A DNA stretch of 64,000 nucleotides from Lantana camara. Its lineage: Eukaryota > Streptophyta > Magnoliopsida > Lamiales > Verbenaceae. A model generated the notes under the pieces. It saw nothing but the letters and a program-made list of their open reading frames with translations, made no database searches and was not told where the DNA came from. Shown piece after piece: positions 1,085 through 63,039 of this stretch. Made by a program: the position numbers and the translations under genes. The stretch's first letter is position 1. Each line of letters begins with the position of its first letter. The stretch spans positions 50,413,001-50,477,000 of the forward strand of contig CM074855.1 of assembly GCA_037501455.1 (NCBI GenBank). The letters run 5' to 3'.

Positions 1085-1204
1085 TCCTCGGCCGGGGAAA
1101 TTTTGGGCATGAAAGTACCCGGCCGGGGAGCCTTGGTACAAAAGCCTCCTGCATGTATTTCCCCGGGCGGGCACATTTGTGAACAAAATCTCCCTGGGCG
1201 CGGA
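1085..1204. promoter_or_regulatory. Paired near-palindrome array in LTR A (5' copy)
   Basis: Four GC-rich near-palindromes: TCCTCGGCCGGGGA (1085-1098), CCCGGCCGGG (1118-1127), TCCCCGGGCGGGCA (1160-1173), TCCCTGGGCGCGGA (1191-1204). Centres are 31, 44 and 31 bp apart, so they form two pairs. The same spacing with unrelated palindromes is seen in the other LARD LTRs of this window. The role is unknown: dimeric protein sites or RNA hairpins are both possible. Confidence 0.6.
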
Positions 1205-1486
1205 GATTGGTTTAAGGAGCTGCTGTACGTTGTTGTTGTTTATTGCTGCTTCATTTATGCATGTAATGTGGGATGTGTGTGTTTAGCAATTGCTTGTGCA
1301 TACATGTATATATTTGGTTTATAAAAGTTACATGCATGTTTGATTGTAAAGTTTGCATGCATGATTATACATATACGTATATAAATATTTGCATGCATGT
1401 TGAATTGTAAATTTCATTCATGAATTTAATATTTAGGCTTGAATATATAGATATGTTAATGCATGCATGGCTTTATACGTATATAC

Positions 1487-1492
<6 letters not shown>

Positions 1493-1528
<36 letters not shown>
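1493..1528. repeat. (AT)n microsatellite in LTR A, 5' copy
   Basis: Pure AT dinucleotide run inside the LTR. The homologous run in the 3' LTR (10749-10790) is longer, showing independent slippage since insertion. Confidence 0.95.
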
Positions 1529-1531
<3 letters not shown>

Positions 1532-3195
1532 TATGATATATTAAATATTGTTTGATTTAATTAAATTATGGAAATTAAAATGTTATCTATTTCATGTTCC
1601 TTTCTAATTTCCAATTTTAAATTGAATGTAATTATTTGTCTATTCTATAATTGTAAACGTGTTATAGTACGTGATATGACCGTTATTTGAATTCGTGGAT
1701 TGAATTGTTATGAAATGTGTAAGGATTGAACTTAAATGAATATGAACGCTTCCTTGAACGAATGAATGACTTGTTTATATGATTTAAATGCATTAATCAT
1801 GCACATGAACGTGTGCATTACATAATATTATCTCTTATGCATTCATAACATGTTCATTGCATGTCGTGCGTCTTATATGGTTCATTTGGAGTCTTGAGTC
1901 TTACGAACACGTTACGTTGTCCATTGTACAGTTTTCTCCAGGACGGAGATGCCGGGTTCATAGGACACTTTCGAGTCTCCTTTCTTCTTGGTATTGTTGG
2001 TAAGAGGCGTACAGGTGAGTTTCTCTTCTATTTAGTTAAATGACCATACATACTCCCAACGTGTAAAGATTTCAGCCAAAAGTATATATGTGTATAGAGT
2101 CGTTTTCCTGAGTCAATGATTTTAAACGTAAGCCCTTATTTTATGAACCTACCAAATGTTTTGGCGAGAAACAAAGAAAGAATGTTATGCACAGAATGGG
2201 GCCCAGGGACTTGGTGTGAGTGGTGACCCCAGGAGGCATGGGCTGACGGTGATCCCTCACACTAGTTTCACCAATGTACAGCATAACCGGACCTCGTTAG
2301 GAGTTAGCGAGGAATGGACGCTGAGTGCCACTAGGGGAGTCATGAAACCCTTTTGGTCAATGAATGGATGGTTCGGGCCGATCACCCGGCCATCACCCGG
2401 AGGAAGAAGGTGTAAATGTTCATGATTGTGCACAAAAGAATGTTATGCATGAATGAAAGAAAGAAAGAAAGAATGTTTAATGAACTACACGAGGTGTTGG
2501 TTGGAGATAATGCACGCCCACTCGCTGGGCCACAAACGACCTAATGAAAAATGAACGTTGTAATCCCTTTTGATGACTTATTTATTTCACCCACTTGGGA
2601 AATGCTCTAAAAACCTCATTTGGGATTATAACCTGCATGTGAATGTTTAAATATTGTTGTATATGTTACTTATGCCTCGTTGTATACCCACCAGTCCCCT
2701 ATAGACTGAACCCGGATTTGCTTTTCAGTGTTCTTGCAGGTTTGGAGTGCTAGGCGGGATTTTGGGTCTGTCAAGTCGTGTGGTCGAGTCTGAGTCCCAC
2801 TACACGCATATTGTAATTGATTGAGTTATGCATTGAATGTATAAATATTATGAAGGTACTTTGCGATATTCGGGATAGGCTTCTAGGAATAGTTGAACCC
2901 GTGAATTGTGAAATTTTGATCTATGTATGAATTTCGGGACTAGGTATTTATGTTAGTTGAACCCGTCACTTGTTTCTTACGTTGTGATTGAACTTATGAT
3001 TTGTTTCCGCACGTTAATTTAATTTTGGTTAATTACTTATTTGGTTTCGGAGTTTTAGCCCGCCTAGCATAGTGTGTGAGTGGTCTCCCATTCGCTATGA
3101 TTCGGATTCGGGTACGGACTTCACATTTCGTAACCGAGTTTGGGTTATAGTGCGGGGGATGTGACGTCTTCCGTTTGGGGCGCTACATCCTTAAG

Positions 3196-7296: not shown

Positions 7297-8390
7297 AGTG
7301 GTATATATCAAGAATTTCGATAAAAGAAGGATTGATGGAATTCGACATGTAAGACAGAAAATTTAAGGGGGGGAGTATGACTATGAGATAAATCAGAAGG
7401 TTGGAATTGAGCCATGAAGAAATATTTTAGTAGGAACAACGAAATTGTAAATTAAGGAAGACCTGGAAGTCCTAATGGTGGTGGTCAGAAATGAATAAGA
7501 CGGCTTGAATGGTTAAGCTGTTCATAGGAGAGCTAATTCACTAAATTCGGGTTGAAGATTTTCAAGGGAAATAGAGAAGATAGTTCGTTGAATCTTTCTA
7601 TGTAGGTAAGTTGATTTGAAGATATAGGAGTTATGGAGGAAATCTAAATCAAGCTTCAAGAATCGTTAAGAACATCCTATCTCTGATTAAAGAAGTGTAG
7701 GAGCCGAATGCCAAATCTCACCTTAGAGGTTAAAGAGAGTGAAAAGGGTAAATTGAACGAAAGATAGGAGGAGATTTGGGTGATATACATATAGGTCGGG
7801 CATAAACATTTAAAGACGCCAAGGGTAGTTATCTTCAAAGGTAGGTTAGGTTTTGATATGGGAAAAGAAAATAAGTGTGGATCTGATTTAGGGACGGATG
7901 ATTTAAAGGTAGTCGGGGAGGTCAAGCTCGGTTAATTAAAAAGAGTTAGTCGGGCCGAATGAAGATTACGGGAAATGCTGAGAGATCGAAGAGAACTAGA
8001 AGCAGTAAAAGTCAGAAGGGAATTAAGAATAATATTTGAAGAGGATCTATTATGGCTTCACCGGGGCATACTGAAGAAATTAAAGACAAATCAAGCTCTG
8101 CACTCACTTTCAAGGCAAATCATGCATTGTATAACGAAACTCCCAACTCCAAATTTCTGTACATCGGTGAACGGTACATGAAGCATCCATGATACATGCA
8201 TCCATGCAAATTTAATTTAAATAATTTTCTGCTATGTGCTTTGATTCCCTATCATGTTAACTTACTTGGAGTAATTGATAATCAAGTGGATGATAGCTAT
8301 TAACTGCTTTGGCTGTTATATGCGATTTTAATTATGGTTTTGCGTGGTGTTGCTCGGGAGTATTGGAGACTTCCTTGCTTTATTTTGTTT

Positions 8391-8522
8391 GAGAGACGGG
8401 GATTCTCTTATTTTGTTTGAGAGATGGGGTGCTCTCTTTGCCTGCGAGAGACGGAGTTCTCTCATTGTTGCTCGAGAGACGGGGCTCTCTCCTTGTTGCT
8501 TGTGAGAGACGGGGAATCTCTC
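8391..8522 (+). repeat. Tandem hairpin array upstream of the purine tract (LARD A)
   Basis: Five units of the type GAGAGACGGGG-ATTCTCTC begin at 8391, 8419, 8446, 8474 and 8504 (period 27-30 bp). Each unit is itself an inverted repeat: GAGAGA pairs with TCTCTC around a CGGGG loop. The same array lies beside the purine tract in elements B (41747-41823), G (55225-55329) and E (trace). Confidence 0.85.
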
Positions 8523-8566
8523 ATTGTTTGTTTGGGCGAGTAGTGAATCCGAGGATGGATTCTTTT

Positions 8567-8578: not shown

Positions 8579-10340
8579 TTGTAACGCCCCAACTTTTCGG
8601 TATTTTAATATGACGTATGTGTTTACCAATTTGCGCAAACTAATTGTTCATAAGTGTTTTATATATATAATTTTATATTTTAAATGTTAAAATTGTTAAT
8701 TAATCATATCTTAAGTTAATTAATATCGAATTTACGCTAAATCGTTGTGTTTACCTAATTGCGCAAATTAATTGTTTATACGTGTTTTATATATTTAATT
8801 TTATATATTAAATGCTAACTATTTATATTTTAATTTTATTTGTGTTAAAATTCAATTTAAATTGTGCACTTTAAATTTAAAGTATATTAAATACGTGCTT
8901 GTGACTTTAAATTAATTTGATTTGTACAATTATTATTAAATGTATAAATGTATTTCGTGCATGGATTTTAATATATATGTAAGTATTGTTTTTTTTTGTT
9001 TAATTATATTAAATGCCCACGTTGTTTTAATTAATTAAATATGAATTTAAATTTTATTTTATTTTATGGAATGTAATGAATTTGTTTATGTATTGCTCAT
9101 GAGTGTCATAAACGTGCTTCGTTTTTATATGATTTGATATCGAACTTTCGTGAAAATTTAATAAGTTGTAGGTATACGTGTTATGAATATGAATATGTGC
9201 TCGTTTCATGTTTTCGGGTTCATTTTTATAAGTTTCGAATTTATTTTGTTCTTGGAATCCAAATCGGGGGCTAATGAGCAATTAGCGCACCCTTGGTTCC
9301 GTATGTGATATCTTGAGCTCGGGAACTCGGAATCGAGTTTCGTCAACTTTCCTGAACTCGTAATAAAAATTCGGGTTCAATAAACTTAGCCTCGTATTTT
9401 TCCAAGACTATTTGAACCCCCGAATTTGAACCGAAAAATGAGAAGGCTGCTAAATTGTCACACTTAGCCATTTTCCTCATATCTCCTTCCAACCTTGACC
9501 AAATTAACCATGGTTGGAGGCTATGGAACCCTAACTCAACCCACTAACACTCCATATCAGCCCCAAACCGAACCACACACCTCATACCAAAAAATTATCA
9601 ACCAAACACCCCTGTTCCAGAAAATCCCGTAACCCTTGCCATACTTGGAGATTCAAGCTCAAATCTCTTCCATCTTCCATCCAATCCACAAGGTAAGTTT
9701 AGGGTTATGTTATACATTCATTTAAAGTCATTTTGATCTATTCATCCCCAATTTTGATCATGTTTTCATGAGTATATGGCTGATTTGGAGAAATAGTTAG
9801 GTTATGAGCATATTTGTTGATCTCTTTCATTACTTGAGGTATTTGGTTGATTCTAAGCACGAATATGATTGTCTTGACTCCCTCTTCTCATTTATGATCA
9901 TTGATTTTGTGGTAGTTGAAGATTTGATGAGATTTCATTAATGGCACTTTGAGAAAATGGAAGAATGGTCTTCTTTTCTCTCCTTTATGAACTGAACTGC
10001 TGCTGTTGCGTTTTGGGGTCTTATATGCTGTCAATTGCTACTTTTGTTTATCTTGTTTGTGGCTGAATATTGGGTTGAAGAGTGCTTAAGATTGCTGCTC
10101 TGTTTTGTGGTGTTTTTGCTCTGTTTTTCGTTCATTTTGCTGCGAATATTTGCTGTCAATTGCTGCTGCGTGCTTCCCTTGCTTAACTACTGTGTTTTAG
10201 CAGTCAGATGTAGGAGTTCTTGGTGTCATTCTTGCTGCTGTATCTGCCTTACGTTGCTGTTAATTGCTGCTGTTAATTTCATGCCAAGAAACATGGGTGT
10301 TGCTTTGTAATTTGCTGCTGCTACGGGTCTGGGTTGTATC

Positions 10341-10460
10341 TCCCCGGACGGGGAAATTTTGGGCATGATAGTACCCGGCCGGGGAGCCTTGGTACAAAAG
10401 CCTCCTGCATGTATTTCCCCGGGCGGGCACATTTGTGAACAAAATCTCCCTGGGCGCGGA
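10341..10460. promoter_or_regulatory. Paired near-palindrome array in LTR A (3' copy)
   Basis: TCCCCGGACGGGGA (10341-10354), CCCGGCCGGG (10374-10383), TCCCCGGGCGGGCA (10416-10429), TCCCTGGGCGCGGA (10447-10460). Centres 31, 44 and 31 bp apart, as in the 5' copy. The first unit is more symmetrical here than in the 5' LTR. Confidence 0.6.
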
Positions 10461-10742
10461 GATTGGTTTAAGGAGCTGCTGTACGTTGCTGTTGTTTATT
10501 GCTGCTTCATTTATGCATGTAATGTGGGATGTGTGTGTTTAGCAATTGCTTGTGCATACATGTATATATTTGGTTTATAAAAGTTACATGCATGTTTGAT
10601 TGTAAAGTTTGCATGCATGATTATACATATACGTATATAAATATTTGCATGCATGTTGAATTGTAAATTTCATGCATGAATTTAATATTTAGGCTTGAAT
10701 ATATAGATATGTTAATGCATGCATGGCTTTATACGTATATAC

Positions 10743-10748
<6 letters not shown>

Positions 10749-10790
<42 letters not shown>
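10749..10790. repeat. (AT)n microsatellite in LTR A, 3' copy
   Basis: AT dinucleotide run homologous to 1493-1528 and a few units longer. Confidence 0.95.
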
Positions 10791-10793
<3 letters not shown>

Positions 10794-12440
10794 TATGATA
10801 TATTAAATATTGTTTGATTTAATTAAATTATGGAAATTAAAATGTTATCTATTTCATGTTCCTTTCTAATTTCCAATTTTAAATTGAATGTAATTATTTT
10901 TCTATTCTATAATTGTAAACGTGTTATAGTACGTGATATGACCGTTATTTGAATTTGTGGATTGAATTGTTATGAAATGTGTAAGGATTGAACTTAAATG
11001 AATATGAACACTTCCTTGAACGAATGAATGACTTGTTTATATGATTTAAATACATTAATCGTGCACATGAACGTGTTCATTACATAATATTATCTCTTAT
11101 GCATTCATAACATGTTCATTGCATGTCGTGCGTCTTATATGGTTCATTTGGAGTCTTGAGTCTCACGAACACGTTACGTTGTCCTTTGTACAATTTTCTC
11201 CAGGGCGGAGAGGTCACTTTCGAGTCTCCTTTCTTCTTGGTATTGTTGGTAAGAGGCGTACAGGTGGGTTTCTCTTCTATTTAGTTAAATGACCCTATAT
11301 ACTCCCAACGTGTAAAGATTTCAGCCAAAAGTATATATGTGTATAGAGTCGTTTTCCTGAGTCAATGATTTTAAACGTAAGCCCTTATTTTATGAACCTA
11401 CCAAATGTTTTGGCGAGAAACAAAGAAAGAATGTTATGCACAGAATGGGGCCCAGGGACTTAGTGTGAGTGGTGACCCCAGGAGGTATGGGCTGACGGTG
11501 ATCCCTCACACTAGTTCCACTAATGTACGGCGTAACCGGACCTCGTTAGGAGTTAGCGAGGAATGGACCCTGAGTGCCACTATGGGAGTCTTGAAACCCT
11601 TTTGGTCAATGAATAGATGGTTCGGGCCGATCACCCGGCCATCACCCGGAGGAAGAAGGTGTAAATGGTCATGATTGTGCACAAAAGAATGTTATGCATA
11701 AATGAAAGAAAGAAAGAAAGAAAGAATGTTTAATGAACTACACGAGGTGTTGGTTGGAAATAATGCACGCCCACTCGCCGGGCCACAAACGACCTAATGA
11801 AACATGAACGTTATAATCCCTTTTGATGACTTATTTATTTCACCCACTTGGGGAATGCTCTAAAAACCTCATTTGGGATTATAACCTGCATGTGAATGTT
11901 TAAATATTGTTGTATATGTTACTTATGCCTCGTTTTATACCCACCAGTCTCCTATAGACTAAACCTGGATTTGCTTTTCAGTGTTCTTGCAGGTTTGGAG
12001 TGCTAGGCGGGATTTTGGGTCTGTCAAGTCGTGTGGTCGAGTCTGAGTCCCTCTACACGCATATTGTAATTGATTGAGTTATGCATTGAATGTATAAATA
12101 TTATGAAGGTACTTTACGATATTCGGGATAGGCTTCTAGGAATAGTAGAACCCGTGAATTGTGAAATTTTGATCTATGTATGAATTTCGGGACTAGGTAT
12201 TTATGTTAGTTGAACCCGTCACTTGTTGCTTACGTTGTGATTGAACTTATGATTTGTTTCCGCACGTGAATTTAATTTTTGTTAATTACTTATTTGGTTT
12301 CGGAGTTTTAGCCTGCCTAGCATAGTGTGTGAGTGGTCTCCCGTTCGCTACGATTCGGATTCGGGTACGGGCTTTCCATTTCGTAACCGAGTTTGGGTTA
12401 TAGTGCGGGGGATGTGACGTCTTCCGTTTGGGGCGCTACA

Positions 12441-41746: not shown

Positions 41747-41823
41747 GAGAGACGGGGTTCTCTCGTTGTTTGTTCGAGAGATGGGGTTCTCTCATTAGTT
41801 GCTTGAGAGACGGGGATTCCCTC
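41747..41823 (+). repeat. Tandem hairpin array upstream of the purine tract (LARD B)
   Basis: Three units GAGAGACGGGGTTCTCTC (41747, 41776, 41805; period 29 bp), each self-complementary. They lie about 290 bp before the purine tract. Confidence 0.85.
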
Positions 41824-42108
41824 ATTTGTTTCTTATTATCTGTTTTGCTTACCTCTGGTGGCAGCTTAGACTTTCGAGTGCTTAGGCCTTATGGTGAGTT
41901 AAGGGTCGTGACTAAACAATAAGTTGCACCGAATCAAGCTCGAGGACGGATTGGTCCTCTTTTCAATGCATCGAAGATCCCCCTTGTTGCTTGAAGACCT
42001 ATCCCGAACTAATTCTGACAGGGAGTTGCTAACCCCCGTGGGATGAACATGGGAAAGTTTGCTTAGAGTCCACAAATCGAGGCAGTGGACCTGGAGACCA
42101 GGTCCTCT

Positions 42109-43161: not shown

Positions 43162-45643
43162 GCCCGAGATTACAACTAATCAATTTAATAATTCAATCAT
43201 GATCAATTTAATACATGGCTCGGCGAGTGAGGGCAATTATCCAACCTTTCTCCAAAAGTGTACAATCATGAGTGTTTCAATTTATTAGGTTATCATGCAA
43301 GTAATTACGTGCGATCAATTAGTAGTTTCATGAACTCCTTGCTCCGGGTGATGGTGGGCTTGCAAGACCCAACCATCCAATCATGGTGTACGTCGGAAAC
43401 ATGACTCCCACGCACGGGATTTCTACCTCCACCAAACCTCCTGGTGGATTCAGAGGTGATCCCACAATGGTGAGGATAGTGCAAGAGTTACCCGTCAACC
43501 CTTGCTTTCCCGGTTGGCTCAATACACTACCCTCGGGGCCCAACGTGAACAATAGTTACTCGCCAAAACAATCAATCAATCCGTTCATTTCATGAAACCG
43601 ATTGTAAATCAATAAGATTTGAAAACTATAATTATATATATACTTTTGGCCGAAAACAACACATAGGGTTGTAAGGGTTCTAAGTATCTAGAATTAAACC
43701 TCACCTGACGAACGACGGGACAAGACAAGGGTACAAGAAGGTGCCCAAACGATCCATGATCTTCGTCCTGGAGAAAAACTGGTTAAGAAAGGGAATAGTG
43801 GAAACCCGTGAGACGAGACTCAATATGAAACCAAGTATGACGCACGACCATACTCATGTAAATAAATAAAACAAGTAATCAAGTGACACTTAGCATGTAT
43901 GAAAACTAATTAACACCTAAGAGGTTAAATTAATATCAAGAAATCATGTATTCATATTATTCAATTATTTCAAGTTCAATTCATGTAAGGCATGGAGTCA
44001 CACAATCATATTTGAGCAATTAAGTACTAAGTAGTGTCAATTAGGAGATACTTATCAATTAATCAAGTATATGTATCATAAATTCACATATGGGAGCCAA
44101 GAGAGTGAAAGGAATGCAATAAGAAAGGTTTTGGTGAAGTTTGGCAAAAACGGACAATTTTAGGAAACGCACACGCTGTAGGAAAACTGGAATATCTTTA
44201 ATTCTAGAAGTGGGAATTGAGTTTTGTTTATTGGGAATGAAACTAGACACAGAGACCTTTCCGAGGATATATGGATCGTATTTTAGTTCAAAGTGAGGAG
44301 AAAATGGCATAAGTCCGAAGTTAAGCGAGTGAAGTTTGTCGGGAAGATAGCGACACCTAAAAGAATTAATTATATCTCACAAATGAGAAGATATATTGAG
44401 TTTATTCCAATTGCAGGTTGTTCTAGACTTCACGAGGTTTCCGTCGGTTCAAAATTCAGGCCAATTGCAGTTCGGATGAGGGTGTCGCGGCCATGACAAA
44501 ATCACACTGGAAATCAGTCGAGGCCGCAACTGAAAATTACCCAACTTTCGAATTGTTGGTCGCGGCCGCGACCGAAAATGGTCACGAAAACTGTCGCGGG
44601 CGCGACCTTCAAGTCCAGCAGCAGAAAAAGCTTCGGGAAAAATAGGGCAAGCTCGATTTTTGGCTCCCAATCCACTTTCACACCAAATCAAAGCAAGAAT
44701 CAACCCAAAACTAGCATCTAACATGCATATAACTCACATATATCAAGTAGGCACCATTTAATCCATGGAAACATACATAGATCATCAAGAAATCATCAAC
44801 CAAACCCTATATATATATCATGATATCCAAGTCTCAAATTATTCATGAATTCATGCAAGCTTTCAAGATTAATGATCCTAAGCATGCTTCTAATCACTTA
44901 TACACAAGAAATCATCAAATAACCCTCAAGCCCTAATCATAATCATCAAGGAATTCAAACAACTTCATGTTATACCTTGAAATGAAAGAAGAATGGAAGG
45001 AAATGGTGGTACGATGATGATGTTTCAACTTGAATGCTAACTCCTTGAATTCTTGCTTGAAATTTGATGAAACCCTCCCTTCTCTTATCTTGGTGTAAAA
45101 ACCGATTCTTAGTGTGTGTGTGTGTGTAGTTCTTGTATGCAATGTAATGTATGAGAATGTGGAAGAAGAGATACATATATGATATATTATATCTCCCACC
45201 AGCCTACACTAATCCCCATTAATTGCACTTAAGTCCCTAAGTTATTTAAATGAATGAAATCAAGTTTCAATCCATGATATATGAGCAGTTAACTTCAATT
45301 CATGTTATGCAATTTAGTCCATATAATTAGGAAATGATCAAGTAAAGTCATGTAGAAGCATTTAATCACTTATCAATTAATTCATGTATTTTCCACGTTA
45401 GTGACAATTCATACAAATGCATAAAAGTATATAATGCATATAATATCATGAAAGTTATAAATAAATAATTAAAATAATTCTCAAGTTAGGGAAAATTATC
45501 AATTAAAGACAATTAATCAAGTAAAACATGTTCGACAATTATTTCACATAAATTCTCACGTTAACAATAATTTCATGGAAACAATTAGTAATATAATATC
45601 ACATAATATCATGTAATGTATAATTGAAAATTGGGGCATTACA
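43162..45643 (-). repeat. G-type LARD LTR fragment, joined into LTR B
   Basis: Reverse-oriented LTR homologous to those of element G, from gcccgagattacaac (compare 52476) to ggggcattaca (45643). Its first 570 bp or so (plus-strand left end) are missing, together with the middle of the surrounding B LTR, so a deletion spans the junction. Carries the GTCGCGGCCGCGAC palindrome array (44483-44607). No gene; open frames inside are LTR sequence. Confidence 0.75.
44483..44607. promoter_or_regulatory. Paired near-palindrome array in G-type LTR fragment
   Basis: 16-bp units at 44483, 44516, 44558 (GGTCGCGGCCGCGACC, perfect) and 44592; starts 33, 42 and 34 bp apart. Confidence 0.6.
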
Positions 45644-45789: not shown

Positions 45790-46599
45790 TTTTGCCCTTT
45801 CCTGAGAACTCCTAAACGACCGTTTGGAATTTTTTCAGAAACCAGAAATGACCGTTTCGGACCCTTCTATTTGGTTTTTATATTTTTCTCGTTTCGCGTG
45901 CTTTCTTCGTGCTTTCACTTCTATATCCTTTCCTCGACTCTTTTAGATGTTATGGATTATATGCATGTTGAATTCTCATGTATGCATGAATGATTCTATG
46001 AACTTGAAATTTCAATTATTGCTTTATGTTCGTTTATTCATTATGTGGGACATTTATTGTGCACATGAACATGTTATGGATATAATATGACTTCATACTC
46101 ATGCCAAATGCATTTTAATCATTTTCCGTGCGTCATACTTGGTTCATATTGAGTCGTGTCTCACTCGTGCACTGTTTTTCTTGTCCAGAGGGTTCTTAGG
46201 AGGCTGACGAGCCAGCTTTATAGGGTTCGGGGAGTTTGTTATTGCCTTTTTGGTTTGGCAGGTAAGGAAATGATAGGTTACATATTATAAAACCTACAAC
46301 CCGATTATATGATGAATTGGCTAAAATCTATCTTATATGTAGGTACCTTGATTTTAAATGAGCAAATGTTTGCAAAATGAAACCGAGACCTGCTCCTTTC
46401 CTATTTTGGCGAGAATCTTGCACTTCCTGGAGCCCAGGGGCTTGTGTATTGAGAGAATCGAGAAAGTATGGGCTGACGGTCATCTCTTTCATGAGTCCCA
46501 CCTTTTTGGAGCAGCCCGGACGTCCATCAGGAGGTTTGGTGGACCGATGGGATTCCGGTCAATGGAATTCATGTACCCATTGATCACCTTGTCCTGGGT
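45790..46599 (+). repeat. LTR of element E, first segment
   Basis: LARD-type LTR body resuming after B: a palindrome pair (45812-45859), then the cgtgcgtc block (46127), a ggcgagaat block (46406) and a gagcccagggg block (46430). The front half of this LTR should lie left of B, outside the window. Interrupted at 46600 by solo LTR F. Confidence 0.75.
45812..45859. promoter_or_regulatory. Near-palindrome pair in LTR E
   Basis: CTAAACGACCGTTTGG (45812-45827) and AGAAATGACCGTTTCG (45844-45859), starts 32 bp apart. Probably the second pair of an array whose first pair lies upstream of B. Confidence 0.5.
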
Positions 46600-47551
46600 T
46601 GTAACGCCCCGTTTTCCTGACAAGCCATGTATGACGTCACGAGTGCATTTAGGCTGAGAGTTATGTGACTTATATGTTTTTATTTGCTAAGTGGACGTTT
46701 ATTATAATTACTTTCTTGAATTAATTACCATTACGTGACCTACATGATTTATATGACCTTTGAGCATTCTATTTAAATTCCTTTACAATACGTATACTTG
46801 CTTAATTAATGTTTTGTTTCGATTATGTGCCTATTTGAAATTATATGAAATCCTTGGACTCAATTGAACTTTGAATTGGACCCCAATTACTCACCTACCA
46901 AACCTTGGGGCCCTAATTGGATCACTTAAATTCTCAAAGGACCAAAGTGCAAATTCTTCCCTTCTCCCTCTCCATTTACACGATATACACACACCCAACA
47001 CCCCATTCTTCTTCTTCTCATTTTTCTCTCAAAATGCAAGACTCCAAACCCCTTTTTCTTCTTCTCTTCAATCGATCCAAGCAAGACCAAGAAAGACAAC
47101 ATTTTCAAGCTCCATTCTTCTCCCTCAAGCTCAAGCTTCAAGCCCTCCATATTCTTCCTTCTCTTATCCTCTTTTCTTCCAAGGTATATGTGTATTTATA
47201 TGAATATGTTGGGTGATAATTATGGTTGTATGATTCTTGGTTAATAAATTGAATCTTGGTGTGTATATGCATGAATATATGATAATCTATGAATTCTATG
47301 CTTGATGGTTGGAATTCTTGGAGGAAGAGTATGTGTATGTATATGTCTGTATATATATGTGTGTGTTTGATGTGGGTTTGATGAATTCATGGATTAATAC
47401 TTGTTTTGATGTGTATTTTGTGTGCTATATCTTGTGTTTTGATGTAATTGTGAGTTATTTTGGTTGGGTTCATGATTTGGGATGATTTTGGAGCCTTCCC
47501 TTCGAGCTAAATCTGATCCCCTGCCCTGTCCCTTTTTCAAACAGAGCATAC

Positions 47552-47673
47552 CCAAACGGGCATTTGGATACCTAGTTCATTCACCAAACGCCCGTTTAGA
47601 AAGCTACTGCCTCACCCGAGGACCCTCAAAAGCCCCTTTCTGCTTTCAGACTAATTTTCAAACGGGCGTTTCT
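47552..47673. promoter_or_regulatory. Paired near-palindrome array in solo LTR F
   Basis: CCAAACGGGCATTTGG (47552), CCAAACGCCCGTTTAG (47584), TCAAAAGCCCCTTTCT (47625) and TCAAACGGGCGTTTCT (47658). Starts 32, 41 and 33 bp apart, the spacing seen in the A and G arrays with unrelated sequence. Confidence 0.6.
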
Positions 47674-48630
47674 CTCTCATACAAACTTCGATTGACCTGA
47701 TATTTGAACCCATGGAATCCTCATTAAGCTTAGAACACTCTCCAATTGAAATCAACGAAATATAATTTCTATTTTGTGAGTTATAATCAATTCATTTTGG
47801 TGTCGCCACTTTACAGGAAATCTGCACTCCTTGAACTTTGGACCTACGCCATTTTCTCCTCGCTATGAACCACGATTTGATCCATATATCATTTTAAAGG
47901 TATATGTGTCTACTTTCATATCCAATAAACAAAACCCAATTCCCACTTCTCAAACTCAAGATATACCCATTTTCCTACAGCTTAAGCATTTCCGAAAATT
48001 ATCCGTTTTTGCCAAACTTCACCAAAACCCCTCGTATTGCATTCCTTTCACATCCTTGGCTCCCGTATGTGACTTGTATGAATTATATGCTTGCTTAATT
48101 GATAATTATGATCTTATTTGACACTCCTTAGTCCTTACTTTCTTAAGTTTGATTGTTTGAATCCGTGTTTGATACGTTGACTGAATTCGTTTGAGTAATT
48201 GAGCATAGGAACACGATCACACCATTCCATGACCTTCTTATGCTTTATTTCATATTCAATCATGTTATGACACGATACACCACTTTGTGAACATTATCGT
48301 GCATCCTATTTGGTATCATTGAGTCTCCTCTCACGAGTACACCTTGTTTCCTTTCTTGACCTGTTATTCTCCAAGGTGGAGACTTCTGAATCGAATAGGC
48401 ACCGATATTACGCATGTTCCTTATCTCGTGGTATTCCAGGTGAGGGTGTTTTTCGTTTTAGTTATGTATTAAACCCTACAACCCATATATGTGTGTTTTG
48501 GCCAAAATCCTTACTGTATATCTATATTATTTTTCAAAGGATTATCGAGTAAATATTTTAAAAGAATTGAACCGTTTTCAATGAAATAAAATGAATTATC
48601 ATAATTATGATCCCCCGTCTCATAATCCAC

Positions 48631-48760
48631 TGATTGTCTCCCGTGACTGGGTTACCCCTGGCGGGGAGTACTATATTGATTGTCTCCCGCGACTGGGTTA
48701 CCCCTGGCGGGGAGTACTACATTGATTGTCTCCCGCGACTGGGCTATCCCTGGTGGGGAG
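48631..48760 (+). repeat. 46-bp tandem repeat, about 2.8 copies, in solo LTR F
   Basis: Units begin at 48631, 48677 and 48723 (tgattgtctcccg...). Each carries CTCCCGC and GCGGGGAG, able to pair as a stem, so it is another hairpin array. Not seen in the other LTRs here. Confidence 0.85.
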
Positions 48761-49715
48761 AAAGAATTAGGTGGTTCGGGTTTGCAGGCCTCACCATCAC
48801 CACGGAGGAAGAAGGCTGGGAAAATGATTTATGATCATGTTCATGTATTATGTTATTAATGTTATGCATCGTGCGGGAAGGCCGGGACACGGATTGCCCA
48901 AATGATCAAGTCTCATGTTTATTGCTCGCATGTAGTATTATGTAGTGCATGATCACGTATTCAAAACTATTAAGTCATGTTCAACATACACGGTCGGAGT
49001 TTGGTTGGAGATTATGCACGCTCACTCGCCGAGCCATAATGATTATTCTTGAATTATGAAGTCAATGGATTTAATATGAATTAGTCGTAAAGTCCGGGCA
49101 TTGCTTTTCTGTCTTGTTGCCCTTCGTGGGAACTAACTTTAATAAAACCTTGCTCGGGATTTATGACTTGTATGTGCATGTTTTTATATATATGTATCGC
49201 TCCGGCTCACTCAGTCTTCTAGAGACTGATCCCTCTCTTTTCCACTTTTCCAGTTCCTTGTAGGGTTTGCTAGGCGGGAGTGAAGTCTTAGTGGTAGTCT
49301 CGAGTCTCACTTGTACACTTGAGTCACGTTTTACATGTGTATTATGTTTACTGTATCATGTATTTAAATAGGCCTGTGTGCCAACGCATGACTTATGGAT
49401 TATTGAGTTATTAAATATTGATTCGGGACAGGTTGCATGCTTAGTTGAACCCGTTGTTAGGTGCATGTTGAATTTAATTATGTTTATGGAATTAGGGCTT
49501 GTAGCTATTGTTGCGATTAATTATTATTAATTGCTTCCGCATTGCACTCTTCAGGTTGTTGAATTAATTGGTACAGGGTTAGATTCCGCCTAGTCAGGTT
49601 ATTTTGATTTTGTCACCCGTTCGCTATGAGTACGGTTCATGCTGGTTCATCAATTTCTTGTGTGGACTAGACTTATAGTGCGGGGGATGTGGTGCCTATC
49701 GTTGGGGGTGCTACA

Positions 49716-51901: not shown

Positions 51902-54674
51902 TGTAGCACCCAGAACGCTAGGTAGCCACATCTCCCGCACTATAGTTCAATCCACATATGGAACGAGCACCCATACATGAATCAAGCCTATAGCGAACGG
52001 GAGACAATAAAAAAATGACACTCTAGCTAGGCGGGACTAACCCTCAATTCAATTACAACATGCATAAACCATAAACGGAAGCATAAAATACATACATTCA
52101 TTTCATTATCATCATTCCAATTCATTTACATCAACTCCAAATATACCATTTCAAGATTCCATAACAATTTCATAAGTTCCAAGATCAAGTCAAAAAATGT
52201 ATATCTATATAAGTACCATAATAAGCACAAGCATAATGCAATGATGTGTACATATGCAATAACAATTATATGAACTGTGCTAGACCCGAAAAGGAATGAC
52301 CGACTCAATCGCACCTAGCATGCACCCTGCAAACCTGAAAATGTGAGGTGTCAGTCTATGAAAGACCGAGTGAGGGGTTTATAAATAAATATTAGCGCAA
52401 TTACCTTGCAAGCCATAATCTCGGGTAAGATTTTATAAAAGAAACAATATAAGTTTAAGAGTACAATAATTCCTTGCCCGAGATTACAACTATTCCAATT
52501 TAACAATACAATCAATTCAATTCGATCAATCAGTGGCCCGATGAGTGAGGGCAAATCTCCAACCTTTCTCCGACTGTGTACAATAATTCAATTATTCAAT
52601 GATTAGGTGCTCAAGCAATCAATTACAGTGCACAATTAGCAATTTCAATAACTCCTTCTTCCTCCGGTTGATGGTGGAATTGCAAGGCCCCACCACCCAA
52701 TCTCATTGGGCATAGGGTTCATGAGTCCCTATGCCCGGAACTCCTTCTTCCACTAATCTCCTAGTAGATTCAGGGGTCATCCCAACAATGTGAGGGGAGT
52801 GCAGAGTTACCCGTCAGCCCGTGCTTTCCCGGTTGGCTCATACACTAACCCTCGGGCCCACAATGAACAATACAATATACTCGCCACAATACAGTCAATC
52901 AATCGATCAATCGGTACAACTCGATTCAGTAACAGTAATAGTAACAGTAATTCAGTACAATAGTAGTGATTCAGTTGTAAATCATTTGAGGTTTATGGAA
53001 AACTATAGATATATGTATACATTTTTGGCTGAAATCCACATAATGGTTGTACGGGTTCTATATAACTAGAAATTAAACCTCACCTGACGAGCGACGGAAC
53101 ATGACAAGGATACAAGAAAGTGCTCAAATGATCAATGATCTCCGCCCTTGAGAAAAACTGGACAAGAAAGGAAATAACGGGAACTCGTGAGACGAGACTC
53201 AATATAAGACCAAGTATGACGCACGGCCATGCTCATGTAAATAAATAAAGCTTGCAATCAAGTGACACTTAGCATGTATGAAAACCAATTAACACCGAGG
53301 TGCAATTAATCTCAAGGAGTTATGTATACATATAATTCAATTATTTCAATTTCAATTTATATAGAGCATGGAGTCACACAATCATGTTTGAGCAATTAAA
53401 TACCAAGAAGTGTCAAGTAGGAGCATAATTATCTATTAATCGAGCATATATATCATATAATTCACATATGGGAGCCAAGAGAGTGAAAAGAAAGCAAGAA
53501 AAGAGGTTTTGGTGAAGTTGGGCAAAAACCCGACAATATTCGGGAACGTACACGCTGTAGGAAAACTGGAATATCTTAAGTTATAGAAGTTGGAATTGAG
53601 AGTTTCTTATTGGGTATGAAACTAGACACAAAGACCTTTCTGGTGATATATGTCTCGTTTTCTATTTCAAAACGAGAAGAAAATGGCATAGCCCCAAAGT
53701 TGGATGAAAGCAGTTTTCCGATAAAGTGGCGACACCAAGAGGAATTGATCATATCTCGCAAACTGGAAAATATATTGAGGTGATTCCAATTGTAGAATAT
53801 TCTATACTTCAAGAGATTTTCTTGGGTTAAAAAATCAAGTCAACCGGAGTTCGGATGAGGGTGTCCCGGCCGTGACAAAATTGTACTGAAAATCAGTCAC
53901 GGCCGCGAAGGAAATTGGCCAACCTTTCGACTTGTTGGTCGCGGCCGCGACCATTAATGGTCACGAAGCGGTCGCGGGTGCGACCACAACTCCAACAGTA
54001 GCAAAAGTGTTGGGAAAAACAGGGCAAGGCTCGATTTTTGGCTCCCAAGCCTTCCTACATCAAACCAATGCAAGAATTCAACTCAAAACTATCATATAAC
54101 TCATATATATCCTTTAGGCATCAATTAATCCATGGAAACATGCATAAACCATCAAGAATTCATCAATCAAAACCCATATAATTTCATGCCTTCAACTTCT
54201 CATTTTCTTCAAAAATTCATGCAAGCTTTCATATATAATGATCAAGATCATGCTTCTAATTACATATAACCAAGGAATTACTTCAAAATTCTCAAACCCT
54301 AACTTCATATATGAACTCAAGAATTCAATTAAATTCCCAACTCTACCTTAATGAAAGAAAGAAAGGAGAAATGATGGTATGATGATGATGCTTCCAACTT
54401 ATGCAACTTCTTCCTTGAATTAAAGCTTGGAATTTGAGATGAAATCTTCCTTTCCTCCTTGGTGTGATATACCGTGATTTAGTGTGTGTGTGTGTGTGTG
54501 TGTATGGGAATTTTGATGAAATAAAATGAAATGGAATGTAATGGAAGGAATGAGATAATATGCCAAAGTCTTACAAGAAATGGGATGACAAGGCACAATT
54601 TGCACTAAAGTCCCTAAGCTATATAAGTCATGCAATTAGGTATGTATATGTGTATGTATATAATTAAATGAGTC

Positions 54675-54717
<43 letters not shown>

Positions 54718-55158
54718 GTGCATATGTATGCATTGTATATAATTAAAGTAGGATGAAAAGTCTTGGCATTAAAACTTATTTGCACATAAACCCTTGCCTC
54801 TTAGGAATTTACAAGTTAGAGATGCATCAACTCGGCATGTATGTGAGATGATTATATAAACATATATATATAGCTCTAAAAGAATATGATGAAATGGAGT
54901 TGAATATACATATATACATATTATGCTAAATCACTTGAATCATGTTCGGAGAATTAAATATACACTCACGTAATTGAATTCACGAAGTTATAATTAAATC
55001 AAAATTACAAGTATTCAAATCATGGAAATTAAATAGCGCTAATCAAATGAATATGAATCATGCCAAAAATTATAAATTGATAAAATTTCATGTAAACACT
55101 TAGTAATATAATTCACAAATATCATGAAATACATAATTTGAAAACTGGGGCGTTACAA
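51902..55158 (-). repeat. 3' LTR of element G (3257 bp)
   Basis: Plus-strand ends tgtagcaccc and ggggcgttaca. Very similar to 60267-63559. Carries reversed LARD tail modules, the palindrome array (53862-53985), a (GT)n run (54482-54502) and an (AT)n run (54679-54712). No gene supported. Confidence 0.93.
53862..53985. promoter_or_regulatory. Paired near-palindrome array in LTR G (3' copy)
   Basis: 16-bp units at 53862, 53895, 53937 (GGTCGCGGCCGCGACC, perfect) and 53970; starts 33, 42 and 33 bp apart. Confidence 0.62.
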
Positions 55159-55174: not shown

Positions 55175-55224
55175 AGGACCTGGTCCTCAGGTCCACTCTC
55201 GAGTTTGGAACTTAAAACAACAAT

Positions 55225-55329
55225 GAGAGAGCCCCGTCTCTCAAACAAGCAATGAGGGCAACCCGTCTCTCAAGCAAGCAATGAGAGAACCCCGTCTCTC
55301 CAACAAGCAATGAGAGAACCCCGTCTCTC
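55225..55329 (-). repeat. Tandem hairpin array upstream of the purine tract (LARD G)
   Basis: Four units, GAGAGACGGGGTTCTCTC on the minus strand, at 55225, 55254, 55283 and 55312 (period 29 bp). A fifth, decayed, follows. Equivalent to the arrays in A and B. Confidence 0.85.
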
Positions 55330-57832: not shown

Positions 57833-59784
57833 TGTTGGAAAACAGAATCAGAAAGCAGCGGAATTTAAAAAAAAATTTTTTCCAACAAAAGGACCTTGAA
57901 CTCGCAATCGTGTAACCAAATTCGTAAAGATAGAAAACTTACTTTTCTATTATTCTTTCTTGAAGCGTTTCAAGCCACCCAAGAACGCTCTTCACGCGGC
58001 TTGATCCCCTCTCCTTGGTAAAGCTCGAATCTTCAAACTTCTAACTTGAAGTCTCTAGAGAAAGTCCACCAACTTGATCACAATCTAACTAGTAAGGATG
58101 CTAGTTCTCTAGTTAGTGTTTAGGCTTAACCTAGGGTTTAATTTAATCTTGGAGAAAGGAAGGTGTTCAACACATGAACCAAGAATTGTCTATTAGCTCT
58201 AAAGGGGAGCTCGAGCTCCCCTATATATAGGCAAGGGAGTGCCGAAATTCCTAGTCCTTTATGGGCTAGGATTTTGGTCCCTCTCTCCTATTACTTGAGG
58301 ATCAAGTATTTTCAACCTTGACTTTGAATTCTAATTCTAGTCAACTTTGAAGAGAGCTTAAAAAATATCCAAACTATTTTTGGATAATTTTATACTTTAT
58401 TTATTATAAAATAAATAACTTATTTTATCTAATTAATTAATTCATAATTAATTAACTAGATTATTTTCTCCAAAATTAGACTTTCTTTTTAATTCAAAAT
58501 TAAACCAAAGTCTATTAAATAATTAACTAATTAATTATTTAATATATATATAATATATATATATATACACGTGTGTGACACGTGTCACAGTGACACGTGT
58601 CACTCACGTGATCCACACGTGTGAATTCACACGTGTGGAACCCTCTTGGTCCGATTAACTCGTTTAATCATTTTCAAGCCTCAACTCATGTAACCAAGTT
58701 GTTGTGTGTGACCCTCTAGGTTCTCAATTCAATTAGCAGTGACCCCAATTAATTAATTCACTAATTAATTAATCAGTCCACAGATTAAACGACCATAGTC
58801 TAGCAACAGGTGTTTAACCCCTAGCTGAATTGGAATGTTCGGATTCGACAGAACCTTTAAGTCATTGAATCATGTGAGATACAATCCTCCTACTTACTAT
58901 CTCTCAACCAAGATCTAGGGCAAGGGAATAATCAGAACCCTAATAATCCGGTCTTAAAGCTAAGTGCATTTCATATCCATTTGATCTCAATCCAAGAAAC
59001 CCTTTTCTTGATGTCTTGATCTACTGCCTTGGCCAAGGACTCCATATGGCATATGAATGACTTACACAATAAGAGATCACCTTGCAAATGCAAGTGTAGG
59101 TCCTTTCTTGATTCTCATTCACTTTCATGAATCACTTGTGCAGCCCCAGCATAAGCCTTGAATCAGTTGTCTAAGGCGACACCCTTTAAAGCTTATACCT
59201 AAGACTACAGAGTTAACTCATAAAGTGACAAGGAACCTCAAGTCTAAGGATCAATTAATCACATCAATGACTCGTGAGATATTTCCTAATCTGGAAGTTT
59301 CCATTTCCTGAAATAGAAACTTCCTTTCCCATTTAGGAATGTTCTCACACGGGGCACCTCAGTGAACTTACTTATTAAAGTAAGCACCCTCATGTATCAC
59401 GCACGTATCAACTATACACTTTGCACCTCCATGAAACAAGGTGGTCCTTCTTAAGGGCGTGATCCCACAAGCAAGCCTTAGAGGAGTCAGGTTGACACTC
59501 CCACTGTCTGTAGGACTCATCGGCTTGGAGTATTTTACTAATCATGACTTATGTGATATAGGGCTCGTTTCATGAACCATTTCACCTAAATGGTAGAGTC
59601 CTAAAAGTCATCAGGATTAGGGGAGTTCTCATACATGCACAGCAAAAGTAAACGCATACCAAACAAGAGCATATAAAGAAGTGTTGCCTCAATTCGTTAT
59701 TTTATTCAAAGATTGTCTGTGATTACAATAAGGAAAAGCACAAAGCGGATATACAATCGGCTTTCTAGGGCACTATTCCTAACA
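57833..59784 (-). repeat. Solo copia LTR with gatcc target duplication
   Basis: Plus-strand ends tgttggaaaacag and attcctaaca, flanked exactly by gatcc (57828-57832, 59785-59789). Same family as 5005-7296 and the fragment 12441-12574. No internal region remains, so it arose by LTR-LTR recombination. Sits in the interior of element G. Confidence 0.95.
58568..58635. promoter_or_regulatory. Six-copy G-box (CACGTG) array in solo copia LTR
   Basis: CACGTG at 58568, 58579, 58594, 58605, 58616 and 58630, spaced 11, 15, 11, 11 and 14 bp, the exact mirror of the array at 6162-6229. Lies beside an AT-rich TATA-like stretch. Confidence 0.8.
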
Positions 59785-60266
59785 GATCCTTCTATTCCGA
59801 ATCTTAACACTTGAAGTATAACCCAATTAGAGAAATCCATGGTTCTTGAATTCTTGTATGAAGTTCCCCGATGCATTCCTTACAACTTCAAAGCTAGAGA
59901 GAAAAGAGCTTGCGATAGATTAAGGTTGTCGAAGAAATTGGCCGTGGTTTGATATTATCTTTATAGCCTATAGTCACAACTCAATCTCAAGGCTAAATGC
60001 ATGCGATTAGTGCATGCTCGTGCCATATAATTAATACTAAAGGCATACATTTGATGCCAAATGTGATAAATAATTCAACAAAGCGGAAATTAAAACAGGT
60101 GAAACACATAAAATTCAAACAAATTAATAGCAATGAATCAACAATTAGTACTAAGAATCAATGCAATGCACAATTATCAAGTAGTTCCTAAGCCGTACGA
60201 CCTAGACTCACAAGACACGACACTAGAACCTCGGTTTTGCAACCGGGCTCTGATACTACCTTAGGA
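59785..60266 (-). other. Internal domain of LARD G, 5' end, with PBS
   Basis: LARD leader sequence; the last 229 bp are duplicated at 51676-51901. The PBS on the minus strand is TAGTATCAGAGC (60247-60258) with the 8-nt spacer tcctaagg to the LTR. No gene. Confidence 0.8.
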
Positions 60267-63039
60267 TGTAGCACCCAGAACGCTAGGTAGCCACATCCCC
60301 CGCACTATAGTTCAATCCACATATGGAACGAGCACCCATACATGAATCAAGCCTATAGCGAACGAGAGACAATAAAAAAAATGACACTCTAGCTAGGCGG
60401 GACTAACCCTCAATTCAATTACAACATGCATAAACCATAAACGGAAGCATAAAATACATACATTCATTTCATTATCATCATTCCAATTCATTTACATCAA
60501 CTCCAAATATACCATTTCAAGATTTCATAACAATCTCATAAGTTCCAAGATCAAGTCAAAAAATATATATCTATATAAGTACCATAATAACCACAAGCAT
60601 AATGCAATAATGTGTACATATGCAATAACAATTACATGAACTGTGCTAGACCCGAGAAGGAAAGACCGACTCAATCCCGCCTAGCATGCACCCTGCAAAC
60701 CTGAAAATGTGAGGTGTCAGTCTATAAAAGACTGAGTGAGGGGTTTATAAATAAATATTAGCGCAATTACCATGCAAGCCATAATCTCGGGTAAGATTTT
60801 ATAAAAGAAATAATATAAGTTTAAGAGTACAATAATTCCTTGCCCGAGATTACAACTATTCCAATTTAACAATACAATCAATTCAATTCAATCAATCAGT
60901 GGCCCGACGAGATGGGCAAATCTCCAACCTTTCTCCGACTGTGTACACTAATTCAATTATTCAATGATTAGGTGATCAAGCAATCAATTACAGTGCACAA
61001 TTAACAATTTCAATAACTCCTTCTTTCTCCGGTTGATGGTGGGATTGCAAGGCCCCACCACCCAATCTCATTAGGCATAGGGTTCATGAGTCCCTATGCC
61101 CGGAACTCCTTCCTCCACTAATCTTCTAGTGGATTCAGGGGTCATCCCAATAATGTGAGGGGAGTGCAGAGTTACCCGTCAGCCCGTGCTTTCCCGGTTG
61201 GCTCATACACTAACCCTCGGGCCCACAATGAACAATACAATATACTCGCCACATTACAGTCGATCAATCGATCAATCGGTACAATTCGGTTCAGTAACAG
61301 TAATAGTAACAGTAATTCAGTACAATAGTAGTGATTCAGTTATAAATCATTTGAGGTTTATGGAAAACTATAGATATATGTGTACATTTTTGGCTGAAAT
61401 CCACATAATGGTTGTACGGTTTCCATATAACTAGAAATTAAACCTCACCTGATGAGCGACGAAACATGACAAGGATACAAGAAAGTGCCCAAACGATCAA
61501 TGATCTCCGCCCTGGAGAAAAACTGGACAAGAAAGGAAATAACGGGAACTTGTGAGACGAGACTCAATATGAGACCAAGTATGACGCACGGCCATGCTCA
61601 TGTAAATAAATAAAGCTAGCAATTAAGTGACACTTAGCATGTATGAAAACCAATTAACACCTAAGAGGTGCAATCAATCTCAAGGAGTTATGTATACATA
61701 TAATTCAATTATTTCAAGTTCAATTTATATAGAGCAAGGAGTCACACAATCCTGTTTGAGCAATTAAATACCAAGAAGTGTCAAGTAGGAGCATAATTAT
61801 CTATTAATTGAGCATATAATTCACATATGGGAGCCAAGAGAGTGAAAAGAAAGCAAGAAGAGAGGTTTTGGTGAAGTTGGGCAAAACCCGACAATATTCG
61901 GGAACGTACACGTTGTAGGAAAACTGGAATATCTTGAGTTATAGAAATTGGAATTGAGTTTTTCTTGTTGGGTATAAAACTAGACAGAAATACCTTTTGG
62001 GTTTCATATGGCTCGTTTTCTATTTCAAAAAGAGGAGAAAATGGCGTAGCCCCAAAGTTGGATGAAAGCAGTTTTCTGATAAAGTGGCGACACTAAAAAT
62101 AATTGATCATATCTCACAAACTAGAAAATATATTGAGATGATTCTAATTGTAGAATATTCTAGACTTCAAGAGGTTTCCGTGGGTTGAAAAATCAGGTCA
62201 ATCGGAGTTCCGATGAGGGTGTCCCGGCTGTGAAAAAATTGTACTGAAAATCAGTCGTGGCCGCGAAGGAAATTGGCCAACCTTTCGACTTGTTGGTCGC
62301 GGCCGCGACCATTAATGGTCACGAAACGGTCGCGGGCGCGACCACAACTCCAGCAGTAGCAAAAGCTTCGGGAAAAACAGGGCAAGGCTCGATTTTTGGC
62401 TCCCAAGTCTTCCCAAATCAAACCAATACAAGAATTCAACTCAAAACTATCATACAACTCAAATATATCCATTAGGCATCAATTAATCCATGGAAACATG
62501 CATAAATCATCAAGAATTCATAAATCAAAACCCATACAATTTCATGCCATCAACTTCTCATTTTCTTCAAAAATTCATGCAAGCTTTCCAGTATAATGAA
62601 CAAGATCATGCTTCTAAATACATATAACCAAGGAATTACTTCAAAATTCTCAAACCCTAACTTCATATATGAACTCAAGAATTCAATTAAATTCTCAACT
62701 CTACCTTAATGAAAGAAAGAAAGGAGAAATGATGGTATGATGATGATGCTTCCAACTTATGCAACTTCTTCCTTGAATTAAAGCTTGGAATTTGAGATGA
62801 AATCTTCCTTTCCTCCTTGGTGTGATATACCGTGATTTAGTGTGTGTGTGTGTGGGGGGAGGGGGGGAATTTTGATGAAATAAAATGAAATGGAATGTAA
62901 TGGAAGGAATGAGATAATATGCCAAAATCTTACAAGAAATGGGATGACAAGGCACAATTTGAACTTAAGTCCCTAAACTATATAAGTCATGCAATTAGGT
63001 ATGTATATGTGCATGTATATAATTAAATGAGTCAAGATA

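Follow-up and report, generated by a model that had tools for sequence, protein, structure and literature searches.

Paired palindrome arrays in Ty3/gypsy long terminal repeats of Lantana camara resemble exchangeable binding-site cassettes

The stretch analysed here (the window) covers 64,000 nucleotides of the 1.27-Gb genome of Lantana camara (C1:50413001-50477000). It holds long terminal repeats (LTRs) of several retrotransposon families, and the arrays of short near-palindromes inside these LTRs are the subject of this work. The LTRs of the window start with TGTAACGCCCC and end with GGTGCTACA or similar sequences. Element A, on the forward strand, has a 5' LTR at 1..3187 (3861 bp overall, the first 674 bp lying upstream of the window in locus L005) and a 3' LTR of 3861 bp at 8580..12440, with 96.7% identity between both. 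The primer-binding site TGGTATCAGAGC, which we take to match tRNA-iMet, follows the A 5' LTR at 3196 in an exact form, while the copy of element G has one mismatch. Element G lies on the reverse strand, with LTR copies of 3256 bp (51902..55157) and 3293 bp (60267..63559) that are 93.9% identical. Two solo LTRs were also recognised, H on the reverse strand (18635..21286, 2652 bp) and F on the forward strand (46600..49715, 3116 bp). Target site duplications of 5 bp were found for A (AACGC), F (TGGGT) and H (TACCC). The longest stop-to-stop frame in the internal region of A is 120 aa, and a tblastn comparison of the internal regions of A and G with P0001, the polyprotein of a coding relative described below, gave no match. 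Large retrotransposon derivative (LARD) is thus a fair name for A and G, with their long LTRs and noncoding interior. A segment of 1.8 kb at 93% identity is common to the interiors of both elements (5005-6804 and 57999-59784), and since their LTRs fall in different clades, internal and LTR parts appear to recombine too.

The palindromes are 16-bp dyads of the form wing-CGNNCG-wing. Both LTRs of A carry four of them on the forward strand, of the YCCC-CGNNCG type, at 1083..1205 (centres 1091/1122/1166/1197) and 10339..10461 (centres 10347/10378/10422/10453), each time with a spacing of 31/44/31 bp. The array of H (20086..20313, reverse strand) has six palindromes of the GGGAA-CGNNCG type with centres at 20094/20126/20195/20227/20274/20305, spaced 31/47/32/69/32 in sense orientation. 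Arrays of four palindromes of the GGTCG-CGNNCG type are found on the reverse strand in a G-type fragment (44482..44607, centres 44490/44523/44565/44599, in an LTR beginning at 45643) and in both copies of G (53861..53985, centres 53869/53902/53944/53977, and 62219..62343, centres 62227/62260/62302/62335). The G copies are both spaced 33/42/33, and the first palindrome of copy 2 is decayed. On the forward strand, F carries four palindromes of the CCAAA-CGNNCG type (47551..47673, centres 47559/47591/47633/47665, the third badly decayed) spaced 32/42/32, and fragment E carries two of the AAA-CGNNCG type (45811..45859, centres 45819/45851) at 32 bp. All these clusters were present where a first-pass annotation of the window had placed them. 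Its spacings agree for A, G and E; along the window, the first spacing of H is 32 bp and not 33, and F had been given as 32/41/33. Over the whole window, 15 CGNNCG centres with symmetry in four or more of the five wing pairs were counted, where 1.1 were expected and no more than 5 appeared in any of 100 dinucleotide-preserving shuffles. Eleven of them fall in the named arrays, the other four being located at 15204, 15289, 21327 and 39052.

LTRs of the genome were then sampled independently of the palindromes, using two 12-mers located near a TATA-like run. The first, TTTCAGCCAAAA, has 1993 genome matches (111 for the reversed control) and the second, TTTCGGCCAAAA, has 11392 (36 for the reversed control). 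Via these anchors 67 loci were read (30 + 20 + 17; not all LTRs), 42 of which carry an array of the paired-palindrome kind; 40 arrays were kept after removing two partner LTRs. Further arrays came from five LTRs of the window, from the upstream neighbour L005 and from 15 of 18 loci picked by the palindrome GTCGCGGCCGCGAC, which gave 17 arrays; the three remaining loci of this choice were recovered through the anchors too and are counted there. The full set amounts to 63 arrays with 285 sites, in which the choice of 18 loci by palindrome inflates the share of the GGTCG type. The sampled loci are related to each other, so that counts are not independent events. Wing labels were assigned by our own motif scoring or by eye, and the GGTCG label takes in GGTAG sites. 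Excluded from the set were the partner LTRs G2, L050 and L053, as well as L048, the A 5' array and E; same-place loci (L001-L004, L012, L014 and L024); arrays made of different motifs or arising by chance in AT-rich sequence (L025, L043 and the first arrays of L044, L011, L018, L020 and L022); the arrays of L056 and L066; and, in L057 and L059, the second array, which is AT-rich. In L037, G1, L072, L076 and L091, surplus false sites were removed, and L057-L059 are probably one element or a tandem.

A detector making no assumption about CG was run on 76 partly overlapping sequences. It returned 181 repeated-palindrome pairs at a similarity of 12/16 and none in shuffled sequences, 216 versus 2 at a similarity of 11, and 225 versus 4 at 10, these matches including some other palindrome kinds. 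Exact copies in the genome number 15128 for GGGAACGGCCGTTCCC, 10586 for TGACACGGGCGTGTCA, 2923 for GTCGCGGCCGCGAC and 125 for CCAAACGGCCGTTTGG, while the reversed controls gave 0, 0, 1 and 0, respectively. Regular paired palindromes were thus not reproduced by shuffling, a control proposed with the first-pass annotation, neither in the window nor with the CG-free detector. A chance origin of the arrays was rejected on the basis of the shuffles and of the reversed-pattern counts.

Seven wing types were distinguished among the 63 arrays: GGTCG (26), GGGAA (16), TGACA (8), ATCCA (5), CCAAA-like (4), YCCC (3) and GGTAA (1). Written from the outside to the core, the half-sites are approximately AATCCA-CG, TGGGAA-CG, GGTAA-CG, GGTCG-CG, CCAAA-CG, GTGACA-CG and TCYCC-CG (36 arrays). 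The bases had been thought to change completely between families; this is true of the wings, whereas the CGNNCG core is common to every family. Over the 285 sites, symmetry reaches 0.72-0.95 at positions 2-8 from the dyad, but is only 0.42 at position 1, 0.45 at position 9 and 0.38 at position 10. Both core CGs are present in 176 sites, and the central NN is GC in 119. Arrays contain 2-8 sites (8 in a single array) and lie 347-1299 bp upstream of the anchor, which is followed within 12-18 bp by TATAWA in 22 of the 26 LTRs where this was readable.

The spacing between sites is of two kinds. Short spacings (n=135) measure 31-34 bp and are type-specific, and long ones measure 37-106 bp. Of 159 transitions between neighbouring spacings, 152 are from short to long or the reverse, whereas permutation gave a mean of 100.3 and never more than 121; the odd 20-bp spacing of L069 was scored as short here. 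In the 40 anchor-picked arrays, alternation was observed in 95 of 97 transitions. The mean short spacing is 31.5 for YCCC, 31.8 for GGGAA, 32.0 for both CCAAA and ATCCA, 33.2 for GGTCG, 33.9 for TGACA and 34.0 for GGTAA. This alternation indicates that arrays are built of dyad pairs, with about three helical turns between the two members, and symmetry and pair spacing are indeed kept across families with different wings, as first noticed in the window.

Sequence diversity was compared between the parts of the arrays. In nine related GGGAA LTRs, some belonging to coding elements and some to shorter ones, the 60 wing columns have a diversity of 0.000, against 0.027 for the core CG, 0.210 for the spacers, 0.302 for the 5' flank and 0.150 for CpG elsewhere (permutation p 0.00005). 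Values for wings, spacers and core CG are 0.104, 0.258 and 0.165 in the GGTCG group (7 LTRs), 0.120, 0.302 and 0.047 in the TGACA group (8 LTRs), and 0.019, 0.372 and 0.136 in a wider GGGAA set (15 LTRs). The wings are thus under purifying constraint. Across types, half-sites agree at 0.853 against 0.323 when types are mismatched (36 arrays). Compensatory change between the two half-sites, which the first-pass annotation had made a test of its reading, is rare in place within a type. Departures in the GGTCG type (96 sites) are mostly one-sided. Matching changes on both sides clearly exceeded expectation there only at position 5 (3, with 0.59 expected) and at the edge, in positions 8 (9, with 2.58 expected) and 9 (20, with 11.1 expected); position 3 had a single such change, and positions 2, 4, 6 and 7 had none. 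In the GGGAA type (23 sites) they were not above expectation.

The relation between wing type and LTR was investigated next. A-like flanks were found with GGTCG arrays (L014/L035, L021, L024/L046 and L017), and F-like flanks with G-type arrays and G-type spacers (L011 and L020). A tree of LTR 3' halves (31 rows) requires 12 wing-type changes, where the minimum possible is 6 and the shuffled mean is 13.6; 12 of 200 shuffles were as low. In this tree 10 of 27 inner branches are open, L019 has a long branch and some row anchors carry 1-2 mismatches; the GGTAA array of L016, the sole one of its type, shares its flank with the GGTCG array of L016, which makes that change unsafe. L052 and L021, sisters with a support of 100/99 that lie some 0.1 changes per site from each other, bear YCCC and GGTCG wings, respectively. 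L054, of the ATCCA type, falls together with the GGTCG-bearing L035 and L046 (support 99/96). Wing type therefore looks nearly independent of the phylogeny of the LTR itself. No cassette homology was detected across wing types among the 63 arrays (links of at least 90 bp, E 1e-6). Every link joins cassettes with the same wings, and members of both LTR clades occur in the GGTCG groups and in those of TGACA; the arrays of L041 and L045, whose LTRs are in different clades, share 78% over 127 bp. Taken together, these data show that arrays travel as blocks, or cassettes, between LTR lineages, and that the types persist across backbones. The linked groups comprise 17 + 9 arrays for GGTCG, 3 + 2 for ATCCA, 3 + 1 for CCAAA and 15 + 1 for GGGAA, while the three YCCC arrays are unlinked. 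As linkage within the types is incomplete, a type may have split long ago or have arisen more than once. Coordinated replacement of the palindromes in place, within homologous spacers, was considered for F versus G and for all 63 cassettes, and was rejected. The spacers differ along with the palindromes, which cassette exchange fits better. The proposal that the array co-evolves in step with its element was consequently not retained: the families seem to differ mainly through exchange of whole cassettes between LTR lineages, not through in-step drift.

The coding capacity of the carriers was examined in a GGGAA element. Its gag-pol frame is open over 1433 codons (1409 in the translated stretch), and many relatives are open over 1505. 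Its polyprotein P0001 displays Pfam domains in Ty3/gypsy order, with gag, RVP_2, RT and RNase H before the integrase, for which Integrase_H2C2 is above the curated cut-off and rve below. A chromodomain-like end was read by eye in the DNA of L095, P0001 stopping before that end. Two LTR segments of the element are 99.7% identical over 951 bp, indicating that it is young. In L095, the 3' LTR begins 38 bp after the stop at the pol end, with no env frame there, and no long frame besides gag-pol was found in the stretch read (L092 and the start of L095, the leader start lying outside). Exact TGACA site pairs 7.4-7.6 kb apart flank coding stretches about 76-80% identical to the GGGAA polyprotein along most of their extent; within the 3 kb read, two of these run uninterrupted for 1000 and 889 codons, and a third is broken. 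It appears that at least two coding Ty3/gypsy lineages carry arrays, the TGACA carriers being known from the flanking exact sites alone. A short TGACA element, L099, has an intact gag-only frame of 420 aa that shares 62% identity with gag in the coding element, and resembles a gag-only non-autonomous retrotransposon. In L094, a non-autonomous GGGAA element, the Gag pieces share just 37-43% identity with their counterparts in the coding element of this type; wing type is therefore not simply tied to Gag. No coupling of wing type to Gag lineage was seen among the handful of elements compared.

The geometry of the arrays, their constraint, their exchange and the absence of an overall RNA bias, as read from the sequence, probably reflect a regulatory module of the U3 region that is read as duplex DNA by paired dimers, likely of host proteins, with a specificity set by the wing and with exchange of cassettes. 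On this reading, the arrays would serve Ty3/gypsy (Tekay/Del-like) LTRs as cis-regulatory modules, placed within the U3 ahead of the TATA-like run. Each palindrome may be the target of one protein dimer; the two dimers of a pair, separated by some three helical turns, would cooperate in binding and form a unit like a tetramer. Which member of a family of related proteins, all recognising CG, is bound would depend on the wing. These are probably transcription or chromatin factors of the host, because the one coding element examined shows no room beside gag-pol in the stretch read. An element that picks up a different cassette, probably when templates are switched during reverse transcription, might change its profile of expression or silencing. 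A more specific version, to be taken as tentative, sees in the seven wings an address code. Paralogues of one plant protein family, alike in reading the CGNNCG dyad but unlike in their wing preference, would act as dimers of dimers on the 31-34 bp pairs, with cassettes swapped between lineages.

Mismatches within the dyads bear on the choice between DNA and RNA. On the sense strand, 54 G-T against 55 A-C mismatches were counted over all arrays, and 29 against 23 in the anchor-picked set. The lack of an excess of G-T, the mismatch that RNA tolerates, favours a dyad of duplex DNA over a hairpin of the sense RNA. RNA hairpins had been offered in the first-pass annotation as one possible reading. 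In the transcript of the element they would have a role in packaging, dimerisation or a miRNA-like feed to silencing, with symmetry preserving the stems. Stems of 6-8 pairs could form, the U3 occurs at the 3' end of the genomic RNA, and the small YCCC type does show G-T above A-C (6 vs 2), while the CCAAA type runs the opposite way (1 vs 11). Sirevirus palindromes have been reported as small-RNA hotspots (Bousios 2016, as described in the part of PMC10760457 considered). However, the conserved CGNNCG would fall in or beside the loop, and independent hairpins are not expected to keep a rigid pair spacing. Already weakened by the mismatch test, this explanation is rather unlikely.

A protein encoded by the element itself (Gag, integrase or an additional VANC-like frame) that reads the palindromes and co-evolves with them was judged unlikely. 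A precedent exists in VANC proteins, which bind short motifs differing between families (PMC5735166, in part). The polyprotein flanked by TGACA sites, about 80% identical to that of GGGAA, also means that protein and wing both differ between these elements, and the gag-only frame of the short TGACA element is intact. On the other hand, the gag-pol frame stands alone in the stretch of the GGGAA element read, the divergent Gag of L094 accompanies the same wings, and wing type shows next to no linkage with the phylogeny of the LTR.

Two further explanations are very improbable. Symmetry could be mutational and without function, a product of gene conversion or of template switching directed by hairpins, which would keep the palindromes intact and alike. 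Mutation is known to correct quasi-palindromes, and the cassettes do recombine, but this would neither keep the wings invariant while spacers differ by 0.21 nor fix 31-34 bp pairs and CGNNCG across seven wing types. Regular spacing and the likeness of the sites could be left over from the tandem duplication of a single ancestral unit, with the rest due to shared CpG content; some GGTCG arrays do repeat spacings of 33/75 or 33/78, but seven types without detected cross-type cassette homology share the pair spacing, wings are constrained where spacers are not, and in the nine-LTR set the core CG is more conserved than other CpG.

Several observations weigh against the duplex-DNA module. One (97) or both (12) of the core CGs are missing from 109 of the 285 sites, and in the GGTCG and wider GGGAA sets diversity is higher at the core CG than in the wings, though lower than in the spacers. 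The alignments of the diversity test are partly anchored by the palindromes themselves. Within-type compensatory changes are few, and the pair spacing within one wing type is partly shared by descent. The distance between array and anchor is variable (347 to 1299 bp), and every locus read is on chromosome C1.

Comparable arrangements are known from other plant transposons. In Sireviruses, a Ty1/copia genus, palindromic repeats with a CGG-CCG signature cluster ahead of the TATA box within the LTR and are described, in the part of the study drawn on here, as specific to Sireviruses (PMC2829016). The same source reports motifs that are near-identical in distant elements and present in 8-32 copies, and Sirevirus motifs have additional copies preceding ENV. 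Like those motifs, the present arrays have element-specific symmetric flanks, are clustered upstream of TATA and are CpG-rich. Searches found no described element with this layout, in line with the first-pass annotation, but palindromic CG-core arrays as such are known in Sirevirus LTRs (PMC2829016). There, CGG and CCG are separated by intervening bases, whereas here CGNNCG is contiguous at the dyad, and neither pair spacing nor cassette exchange appears in the consulted parts of PMC2829016. The hosts are here Ty3/gypsy elements with 2-8 sites in fixed pairs. Because of the Ty3/gypsy hosts, the contiguous core and the fewer, paired copies, the arrays seem to act like Sirevirus motifs, yet by this comparison are not members of them. 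A 2016 study by Bousios et al. in Genome Research is said to have found that the palindrome-rich LTR block of maize Sireviruses, which are Ty1/copia elements, evolves fast. Such a block is shared with the LTRs studied here, but the RNA-hairpin reading given to it is not supported by the present mismatch test.

Tnt1 also belongs to Ty1/copia. In its superfamily, a U3 block differs sharply between otherwise similar subfamilies and was read as modular evolution (PMC1838419), as wing type varies here independently of the rest of the LTR; the main text of PMC1838419, as far as consulted, mentions no palindromes or repeated motifs, and has no paired dyads or shared core. The elements carrying the arrays resemble Tekay/Del chromoviruses in their gag-PR-RT-RNaseH-IN order, 5-bp target site duplications and a primer-binding site near the LTR end. 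In Del/Tekay LTRs, variable CpG islands have been described at the 5' side, with none in eudicot Del (Cruz et al. 2014, PMC4029996, in the portion used). The broad Ty3/gypsy group is the same, with a variable CpG-rich LTR block beside more conserved sequence, and palindromes are not mentioned in the main text of PMC4029996, nor in PMC11656987. VANDAL elements offer a further parallel, since the short tandem motifs recognised by VANC proteins vary from one VANDAL family to another and form family-specific arrays in noncoding transposon parts that change together (PMC5735166, in part). In contrast to the present arrays, VANDAL is a DNA transposon whose motif YAGTATTAY is non-palindromic, arrayed in the same orientation and bound by an element-encoded protein (PMC5735166, in part). 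No paper with the layout or the motif strings of the arrays was found in the literature searched, which covers few subscription journals.

Other palindromes were observed in the same elements. A second array of GAGAGAcggggTTCTCTC palindromes with a period of 28-30 bp is present at window positions 8382-8534, 41730-41831 and 55215-55344, and also in L020, L022 and L066. In the window copies it lies in the internal region near the polypurine tract, and its sequence is largely kept across families with differing LTR arrays. A recurrent palindrome resembling TAGGTCGT/ACGACTTA, located 62-64 bp past the primer-binding site in the window copies, was found at window positions 3258, 39052 and 60196, at position 3749 of L015 and 3882 of L023, and in L049 and L052; it is a candidate hairpin for leader dimerisation or packaging. 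A short inverted repeat stands immediately 5' of the polypurine tract, upstream of the LTR starts at 42123 and 55157 and in L095, and here symmetry is kept while the bases differ between elements, as judged by eye. In L011, at about 600-975 in sense orientation, more than 20 GCAAGGTgcgGACCTTGC-like palindromes follow each other beside the LTR start, mostly in 16-bp steps. Elsewhere in the window, a nest at 13.8-36.4 kb encloses a Ty1/copia-like element on the minus strand (29161-33130) with three long open frames which, judged by eye, look like gag and pol.

New in the present work are the CG-core palindrome arrays in Ty3/gypsy LTRs, with their paired geometry, their few spellings, the constraint on the wings and the exchange in blocks. 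Palindromic CG-core arrays had been published for one Ty1/copia genus (PMC2829016, in the part considered), and their occurrence in Ty3/gypsy suggests a more general control module of plant LTRs. Thousands of sites in the genome look like an exchangeable binding-site switch for a putative DNA-binding protein. The reader of the arrays becomes a testable question, with a 16-bp dyad, a 31-34 bp pair and a wing-specific binder as predictions. If the address code were true, the wing types would be interchangeable specificities of expression or anti-silencing, long maintained in the genome, between which both coding and non-coding retrotransposon lineages would switch repeatedly by capturing cassettes. 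Cassette exchange suggests how retrotransposon lineages may alter their control by the host without awaiting point mutations.

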